From Longimycelium tulufanense (GTDB lineage: Bacteria > Actinomycetota > Actinomycetes > Mycobacteriales > Pseudonocardiaceae), in contig NZ_BMMK01000006.1 of assembly GCF_014645795.1 (NCBI RefSeq), positions 62,001 to 126,000 of the forward strand: 64,000 nt of DNA, read 5' to 3'. Under the pieces are notes generated by a model. It saw only the letters and a list, made by a program, of their open reading frames with translations, had not been told where the DNA came from and did no database searches. The translations under genes were made by a program, and so were the position numbers. Positions 16,180 through 52,285 of the stretch are shown here, in pieces (within the stretch, counting starts at the first letter, position 1; each line of letters begins with the position of its first letter).

Positions 16180-16292
16180 CGATCCACAAGCCTCGGAGTT
16201 ATCCACAACCCACGATCTTGTTCTTGCTTTGCGTTTCCGCAGCTCAGTAGGCTGGTCGCGGGGCGCCTGCCCCCGAGGAGGGCGGGGGCTGT
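16180..16292 (-). repeat. 113-bp dispersed repeat, copy A, with two DnaA-box-like 9-mers
   Basis: On the minus strand it aligns without gaps to 28758-28870; I count about 83 of 113 identical positions, highest in the middle third. Shared blocks: ACAGCCCCCGCCC, TACTGAGCTGCGGA and AGCAAGAACAAGATCGTGG. Read on the plus strand it holds TTATCCACA (16199-16207), a perfect DnaA box, and CGATCCACA (16180-16188), 19 bp apart. It lies between convergent genes. Confidence 0.75.
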
Positions 16293-16416
16293 CCTCCCAC
16301 TGAGCCGACACTGAGCCGACGGGTTGGGGGACACCGAACACCCGGGTGTGCGATGTCCGGGGTTCGTGCGGATTGCTCCCGCCGCGTCAGCGGAAGTGTG
16401 ACCGTCGGAAAACGCG

Positions 16417-28644: not shown

Positions 28645-28757
28645 CACGAGCGCGAACCAGATGAACCGGTCGCCGTGCTCACCCGGGCGCGGCGACCGGC
28701 TGGAGCATCGGCCCGGCGCCCCGCGATCTCCGGCTCGAGCACCTGCCTTGTCAGAAG

Positions 28758-28870
28758 ACAGCCCCCGCCCGCCCTGGGTCTGCGCAGCCCATGGCGAGCT
28801 TACTGAGCTGCGGAGATGGGCAGCAAGAACAAGATCGTGGCCTGTGGACAACTTCGGCGGCTGTGGATTA
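28758..28870 (+). repeat. 113-bp dispersed repeat, copy B, with two DnaA-box-like 9-mers
   Basis: Partner of 16180-16292. On the minus strand it contains TTGTCCACA (28843-28851), which matches the actinobacterial DnaA box, and TAATCCACA (28862-28870), again 19 bp apart. Spacing of all shared blocks is identical to copy A. Also between convergent genes. Confidence 0.75.
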
Positions 28871-35945: not shown

Positions 35946-37958
35946 TCAGTTCGCCCGGTGGCGTCCGGACTTCCGTCCCGGGGTCCTCACGGTATCGGCG
36001 TATCCGTTGTGCAGCGGGTGGATCGCGCCGTTGACGGCCATCCGCCGCGCCAAGCCCGGGGTGCCTCCGTTGCCGCGGCGGACGTCTGTTTCGGCGTTGC
36101 GTCGGATGTGTTCGGCCTCCGCCCGGGCGTCGGTGACGATCCGGTCCGCTTCGGCGCGGGCCGTGACGAGCACCCGTTCCGCCGCCTCGAGCAGGCCCAT
36201 CACTCGCTGTGTCGTCTGCTCATCCACAACCGGCGCACGCCGATCGCCCGGGTGTCGCAACAAGTTGTCCACATCGGACCCGGAGTTGTCCACAATTTCC
36301 TGGACATTATCCACAGGTTCGTGGACGGAACCGTCCGTCGTGGACCCTTGGCCACCCGAATGACCAGCAGGCTGAGCCGAACCGGTGACGCTGCTGGTCC
36401 GCAACGGAACTTCCTTGATGAGCAAGGTGGCGACAACCGACAACACGGCCAGGACGGCGGCGATCGCGAAGATCGTACCGGCCGCGTCGCCATAGGCCGC
36501 ACGCATGATCCCCTGTACCGGACCGGGAAGATGGGCGATGTCCACCGTTCCGCCCCCGGCGGATCCGCTGCCAGCCGGGAGGTGCAGCTTCGACAGGCCC
36601 TCGGAGAACAGGCCCGTCACGCGGGTCGCGAACACCGAGCCCAGCACGGACACACCGGCCGCACCGCCCAGCGAGCGGAAGAACGTCACCACCGAGCTGG
36701 CCGCGCCGAGGTCATGTGCCGGCACGCTGTTCTGCACCGCCAGCACCAGGTTCTGCATCGACATTCCGATACCGACCCCGATGAGCAGGAGGAATACCCC
36801 GATCACCCACAGGTTCGTCCCGTGATCGATGGTGCCCAGTAGGCCGAGGCCGGCGACGAGCAGAACCGTGCCACCGACGAGGAACGCCTTCCAGCGTCCG
36901 GTACGGGCAATGATCTGCCCGGAGACGGTGGATGCCAGGAACAGCCCGGCGACCATCGGCAGGGTCAGCAGGCCGGCTTTGGTGGGCGAAAACCCGCGGG
37001 AGAGCTGGAAGTACTGGCCGAGGAAGACCGAGCTGCCGAACATCGCGACGCCTACGGCGACGCTCGCCGTGACAGCGAGGACGATGGTGCGGTCCCGGAA
37101 GAGCCGCAACGGGATGACCGGCTCTGCCACGCGTGCCTCGACCATCAACGCGCCGAGCAGGCACAGCAGCGCGCCGGCCAGGTAGGCGAGGGTGGTCAGC
37201 GACAGCCAGTCGAAGTCCCTGCCGGCCAAGGAGACCCAGACCAGCAACAGGCTCACGCCGCCGGTGATGAGGGTGGCGCCGGCCCAGTCGATGCGAACTT
37301 CCCTCCGCTCCACCGGCAGCCGCAGCGTCCGACCGATGACGGCCAGGGCCAGCACGGCAAGGGGAACGACGACGAAGAAACACCACCGCCAGCCGAGCCA
37401 CGGGGTGTCGACGATGACACCGCCGGCCAACGGGCCGCCGACCGTGGCCACGGCCATGACGGCGCCGGTGTAACCGTTGTAGCGCCCACGCTCGCGTGGG
37501 CTGACCATGGCGGCGATGACCACCTGTGCCAGGGCCTGGAGACCGCCCATGCCGACACCCTGCAGGGCACGGAAACCGATCAGGACACCCATTGACTCGG
37601 AGAGGCCGGACAGGACCGAACCGATGCTGAAGATGACGATGGCGACCTGGTAGAGCAGCTTCTTGCTGAACAGGTCGGAAAGCTTTCCCCACAGCGGGGT
37701 CGTGGCGGTCGAGGCCAGGAGGGTGGCGGTGACGACCCAGGTGTACTGCGCCTGGGTGCCGTGCAGGTCGGCGACGATCGTGGGAAGCGCGTTGGCCACG
37801 ATCGTCGAACTGAGGATGGCCACCAGCAACGCGAGCAGGAGCCCGCTCAACGCCTTGAGCACCTCGCGGTGCGCCATGGGCGTCGCCGTACCGGCACCGT
37901 CCACAGCGCCCGCCTGGGCGTGTGCTGTGGCTTGGTGGGTACCGGTAGCGGTGGTCAT
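35946..37958 (-). CDS. MFS drug efflux transporter (DHA2/EmrB type) with long coiled-coil tail
   Basis: 670 residues. The first ~515 form a 14-helix DHA2 exporter (LSSTIVANALPTIVADL, motif WGKLSDLFSKK, RALQGVGMGGL). Proton-driven export of a drug-like compound is expected. The tail of about 154 residues is unusual: three VDN triplets at exact 7-residue spacing, then a charged helix (RVLVTARAEADRIVTDARAEAEHI) resembling DivIVA-type coiled coils. The ATG overlaps the MarR stop as ATGA, so regulator and pump are translationally coupled. The DNA of the VDN repeats carries three DnaA-box-like motifs. Confidence 0.92.
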   Translation of the reverse strand: MTTATGTHQATAHAQAGAVDGAGTATPMAHREVLKALSGLLLALLVAILSSTIVANALPTIVADLHGTQAQYTWVVTATLLASTATTPLWGKLSDLFSKKLLYQVAIVIFSIGSVLSGLSESMGVLIGFRALQGVGMGGLQALAQVVIAAMVSPRERGRYNGYTGAVMAVATVGGPLAGGVIVDTPWLGWRWCFFVVVPLAVLALAVIGRTLRLPVERREVRIDWAGATLITGGVSLLLVWVSLAGRDFDWLSLTTLAYLAGALLCLLGALMVEARVAEPVIPLRLFRDRTIVLAVTASVAVGVAMFGSSVFLGQYFQLSRGFSPTKAGLLTLPMVAGLFLASTVSGQIIARTGRWKAFLVGGTVLLVAGLGLLGTIDHGTNLWVIGVFLLLIGVGIGMSMQNLVLAVQNSVPAHDLGAASSVVTFFRSLGGAAGVSVLGSVFATRVTGLFSEGLSKLHLPAGSGSAGGGTVDIAHLPGPVQGIMRAAYGDAAGTIFAIAAVLAVLSVVATLLIKEVPLRTSSVTGSAQPAGHSGGQGSTTDGSVHEPVDNVQEIVDNSGSDVDNLLRHPGDRRAPVVDEQTTQRVMGLLEAAERVLVTARAEADRIVTDARAEAEHIRRNAETDVRRGNGGTPGLARRMAVNGAIHPLHNGYADTVRTPGRKSGRHRAN
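36265..36315 (+). other. Three DnaA-box-like motifs at 21-bp spacing
   Basis: TTGTCCACA at 36265 and 36286 and TTATCCACA at 36307, all on the plus strand, start-to-start exactly 21 bp. A fourth, weaker TCATCCACA lies at 36220. They fall inside the coding sequence for the VDN heptads of the MFS tail, so they may be a by-product of codon repeats. Confidence 0.5.
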
Positions 37959-52214: not shown

Positions 52215-52285
52215 GCGGGCGTAGTTCAATGGTAGAACGACAGCTTCCCAAGCTGTAGACGCGGGTTCGATTCCCGTCGCCCGCT
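52215..52285 (+). tRNA. tRNA-Gly (anticodon CCC)
   Basis: 71 nt. Acceptor GCGGGCG pairs with CGCCCGC; D-arm around TAGTTCAATGGTAGAAC; anticodon stem ACAGC/GCTGT with loop TTCCCAA, anticodon CCC reading GGG; T-arm GCGGGTTCGATTCCCGT. CCA is not encoded, as usual in actinobacteria. Confidence 0.96.

Follow-up and report, generated by a model that had tools for sequence, protein, structure and literature searches.

A repeat family crowding around the replication origin in Pseudonocardiaceae may consist of DnaA-responsive small transcription units

Non-coding loci that bind DnaA and adjust its activity are exemplified in Escherichia coli by datA, DARS1 and DARS2, which, in the accounts available to us, are single loci that are not dispersed and have no conserved promoter and hairpin. 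Clusters of DnaA boxes are also found in an actinobacterium, Streptomyces, where they are reportedly tied to replication control, going by the title of a 2006 study by Smulczyk-Krawczyszyn; we know of no promoter-hairpin repeat family from that study. In Bacillus subtilis, removal of all six DnaA-box clusters that lie near the origin but outside oriC leads to early initiation (review PMC5295017), and the parts of that review available to us do not present these six clusters as units of promoter and hairpin, or as members of a repeat family. Such oriC-proximal DnaA-box clusters are the nearest known counterparts of the family reported here, of which a literature search, largely without subscription papers, found no account.

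The window, a 64,000-nucleotide stretch of the Longimycelium tulufanense genome, contains two copies of the element, A and B. The original prediction had aligned them by hand without gaps at about 83 of 113 positions, had seen in each copy two box-like 9-mers 19 bp apart (one of them, in copy A, perfect) beside a conserved stretch, and had placed both copies between convergent genes. The recount gave an ungapped identity of exactly 83/113, and the best local alignment scores 59, while none of 300 mononucleotide shuffles exceeded 17. The box arrangement was as claimed, the conserved stretch (GATCTTGTTCTTGCT) was identical in both copies, and the flanking genes are indeed convergent. The real unit is larger than described earlier, as the boxes are followed by promoter-like hexamers and a G-tailed hairpin up to ~16293:

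16180-16292, + strand: copy A
16180-16188, + strand: copy A distal DnaA-box-like 9-mer CGATCCACA, imperfect, at -68 from the -10 (a box pile-up position)
16199-16207, + strand: copy A proximal DnaA box TTATCCACA, perfect by sequence, at -49 from the -10
16214-16228, + strand: copy A GATCTTGTTCTTGCT stretch, common to type I copies of the genome
16224-16229, + strand: copy A -35-like hexamer TTGCTT (alignment A1; TTGACC/TTGACT in other copies)
16248-16253, + strand: copy A -10-like hexamer TAGGCT, spaced 18 bp from the -35 (alignment A1)
16259-16275, + strand: copy A hairpin CGGGGC-GCCT-GC(C)CCCG, located at the 5' end of the predicted RNA (RNAalifold, covariation)
16277-16293, + strand: copy A G-rich tail (alignments A1 and A2)
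Flanks of copy A: VTT/DedA-type gene (+ strand, ends 16069) and FAD-linked oxidase gene (- strand, ends 16417)
28758-28870, - strand: copy B
28862-28870, - strand: copy B distal DnaA-box-like 9-mer TAATCCACA (sequence)
28843-28851, - strand: copy B proximal DnaA box TTGTCCACA (sequence; exact-motif search)
28822-28836, - strand: copy B GATCTTGTTCTTGCT, identical to the copy A stretch
28821-28826, - strand: copy B -35-like hexamer TTGCTG (sequence, alignment A1)
28797-28802, - strand: copy B -10-like hexamer TAAGCT (sequence, alignment A1)
28775-28791, - strand: copy B hairpin TGGGCT-GCGC-AG(A)CCCA (alignment A1, RNAalifold, covariation)
28757-28774, - strand: copy B G-rich tail GGGCGGGCGGGGGCTGTC (sequence, alignment A1)
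Flanks of copy B: alkaline phosphatase gene (+ strand, ends 28644) and penicillin-binding protein gene (- strand, ends 28935)

The unit consists, in order, of paired TTRTCCACA 9-mers 19 bp apart, -35/-10-like hexamers, a short hairpin and the G-rich tail GGGNGGGGGCTG. In the aligned copies of this genome, TTGACC or TTGCTT at -35 is separated by 17-18 bp from TAGGCT at -10; TTGAC was found at the -35 distance in 15 of 30 copies, and the T, A, C and T of the -10 hexamer were invariant in alignment A1. TAG.CT was also invariant in 35 copies from other genera, partly owing to the pattern used for their selection. When 142 unique copies were picked on the -10/hairpin pattern only, without use of the boxes, the box starts piled up at -68/-66 and -49/-46 relative to the -10. 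A simple promoter/terminator scan of the E. coli type detected nothing, the promoter included. Some of the genome's own copies have their boxes in reversed orientation. TGTCAA was observed in such copies; among 140 copies from other genera, 27 also have it upstream of their boxes, mostly at -99 from the -10.

The hairpin was chosen unaided by RNAalifold from the aligned copies. Covariance analysis, suggested along with the original prediction, showed that 94.9% of the cells were paired and 26 were altered on both sides, many of these reflecting one subtype difference; the compensatory exchanges were G-C/C-G and U-A/C-G, and sliding the hairpin partner destroyed the pairing. A longer hairpin, in which the C-run would pair with the terminal G-run, is a possible alternative alongside the short one. 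Judged as a small-RNA gene, the element has conserved hexamers and a conserved hairpin; the predicted RNAs were no more stable than mononucleotide shuffles (mean z -0.5). No covariance model of a known Rfam family matched the element.

A genome-wide search, likewise suggested at the outset, revealed a family of ~50 copies: copy A found 41 places in its own genome at E<=10, and covariance model R1, built from 28 own copies that match by construction, gave 53 matches at E<=1, including 49 below 1e-4. At 29 of these loci, for which a GC-frame script supplied the gene calls, the genes downstream mostly head towards the element and no downstream or neighbouring gene type was shared, suggesting that the element is unlike the leader of one gene. 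The earlier idea that it is the eroded end of an HNH/DUF222 family, the only source of a likeness to such repeat genes, was not supported, given this lack of a common neighbour and the absence of any DUF222 (PF02720) match in the genome.

Searching with a general model (R2) at E<=1e-5 detected the element in 135 of 297 genomes and in 29 of the 46 sampled genera of its own family, identified by the named matches as Pseudonocardiaceae, many genomes of which carry one copy or none. In a pattern scan the core was found, among the matches listed, in Streptoalloteichus, Goodfellowiella, Actinokineospora, Kutzneria and Amycolatopsis, and also in Umezawaea, Solihabitans, Thermocrispum and Pseudonocardia; one listed match was in a record bearing the title Melainabacteria. 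Sampling 395 genomes across the class gave no convincing match outside the family: the strong matches were all within it, and the weak ones (best E 6e-6) were mostly boxes without the core. Streptoalloteichus tenebrarius has tandem pairs of the element ~190-290 bp apart (L129, L138, L193 and L198).

A small mobile element had been among the initial readings, and the dispersal of the copies and the turnover of their positions are in line with it, copy A being absent next to the oxidase orthologue in 17 relatives, one of which had a shortened flank. The family would then be a non-autonomous, MITE- or REP-like element dispersed by its spread through Pseudonocardiaceae, tolerated between convergent genes and kept in the gene-rich origin half, its resemblance to DnaA boxes being incidental or serving its own spread. 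The tandem copies in Streptoalloteichus point the same way, as do lineage-specific subtypes among the genome's own copies, in which GATCTTGTTCTTGCT goes together with the GGGCTGCGCAGACCC hairpin. However, no inverted ends were seen by eye, no transposase was seen, and no element was found in the plasmids, phages and viral contigs searched. Furthermore, boxes, -10 and tail are kept while the spacers vary between copies, and orthologous copies are either constrained or common to two genera. At ten loci in Amycolatopsis adjacent to a cwlM-like gene, 90-98% of the columns from -60 to +46 were invariant, compared with 6% at -170 to -110 and 47% at +46 to +60; the flanks further out, which are partly coding, were 62-85% invariant, so the contrast holds only with the upstream spacer and the +46 to +60 segment. 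Another copy lies between cydA-like and cydB-like genes, named from their sequence, in two genera. We consider a dispersed element of this type rather unlikely.

The original prediction had also proposed testing whether copies cluster by position, and in relatives they do so around dnaA. As the window's own genome is a draft assembly, the crowding was computed in ten complete relatives, with dnaA placed via TIGR00362 and chromosome lengths rounded for most genomes. With R2 (matches listed down to about E 2.6e-11), 63 of 143 copies were in the tenth of the half-chromosome nearest dnaA (median 0.14, KS 1.5e-24), the counts per tenth from dnaA outward being 63, 22, 18, 13, 11, 6, 3, 4, 1 and 2. 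The box-free model R3 (matches listed down to about E 3.8e-8) placed 58 of 150 copies in the nearest tenth (KS 2e-23). The exception among the many-copy genomes was the complete relative G189, which showed no significant crowding. In G189, unlike in the other genomes, 22 of 28 copies are directed away from the origin; overall, copies showed no orientation bias relative to the replication fork (80 of 143 point outward). In all ten complete relatives, the gene adjacent to copy A has an orthologue that lies 170-290 kb from dnaA, suggesting that the window is probably in the origin region of its chromosome.

In Kutzneria albida the core genes are concentrated around oriC (PMC4210621), and thus some of the crowding may reflect a core-region effect, whereby any conserved intergenic feature would appear origin-proximal in these chromosomes. 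Yet the gradient reaches its maximum in the tenth closest to dnaA, and permuted motifs do not follow it. In one complete relative, 32 TTRTCCACA sites, some belonging to oriC itself, were found in the 400 kb around dnaA and none in the opposite 400 kb (TTGTCCACA, 25 and 0 respectively), whereas ~200 permuted 9-mers averaged 0.64 near dnaA and 0.56 on the far side of the same chromosome. Core-region bias as the explanation for the pattern is very improbable.

A further alternative is that the copies are multi-copy small-RNA genes, regulatory or housekeeping, with another activator acting on the TTRTCCACA pair and with origin proximity only raising their dosage. Conservation of the -10 and of the hairpin with its G-tail would fit this, as would the unbiased overall orientation. 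Against it, TTGTCCACA is listed as a high-affinity DnaA box of Streptomyces and Mycobacterium (PMC4285127), the 9-mers also occur around dnaA in the same genomes, and single boxes outside the elements are likewise confined to the origin side of the one chromosome tested. We regard this explanation as unlikely.

The initial reading as a DnaA-titrating element gained indirect support. Exact TTRTCCACA occurs 118 times in the genome compared with 33 for the reversed pattern, 36 of the 100 sites listed fall inside these elements, at least two close DnaA boxes lie outside oriC, and the copies concentrate near oriC in the complete relatives. The number and location of the boxes suggest that the unit probably titrates DnaA. 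The promoter-like signal and the conserved hairpin, however, exceed a plain binding site, indicating that the unit is more than that.

Taken together, we favour, with a probability of roughly one half, an origin-crowding family, present in many copies, of stand-alone small transcription units that respond to DnaA, binding and transcription both being predicted from the sequence. DnaA would bind the box pair and, because the boxes precede the -35, at about -50 to -80 relative to the predicted start, would be more likely to activate than to block the promoter, which in turn would yield a short untranslated RNA of about 45-60 nt with the hairpin. The many extra boxes, presumably duplicated early because they are near oriC, could hold DnaA back after initiation. 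Counting against this view, besides the possible core-region effect, are the non-significant crowding in G189, the unremarkable RNA stability, the negative promoter scan and the many genomes of Pseudonocardiaceae with one copy or none. The arrangement suggests that replication control and small-RNA transcription are connected in a way not previously described. More speculatively, and in our view doubtful, the family may provide origin-centred DnaA-switched promoters whose G-rich short RNAs act on-site (e.g. as R-loops on the G-rich non-template strand) or feed the replication state back; a replication-coupled RNA system of such a kind, should it exist, would be previously undescribed. If DnaA does bind, this bacterial family carries tens of paired-box promoters near the origin, far above the few clusters of model bacteria; DnaA titration and replication-coupled transcription could then be tested directly in antibiotic-producing actinomycetes, and origin regions in draft genomes could be recognized by the unit.

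Elsewhere in the window, three DnaA-box 9-mers 21 bp apart (TTGTCCACA, TTGTCCACA and TTATCCACA) lie at 36265-36315 within an MFS transporter coding sequence, with an extra ATCCACA upstream and without the promoter-hairpin part. One tRNA gene (Rfam RF00005) was found at 52215-52285.
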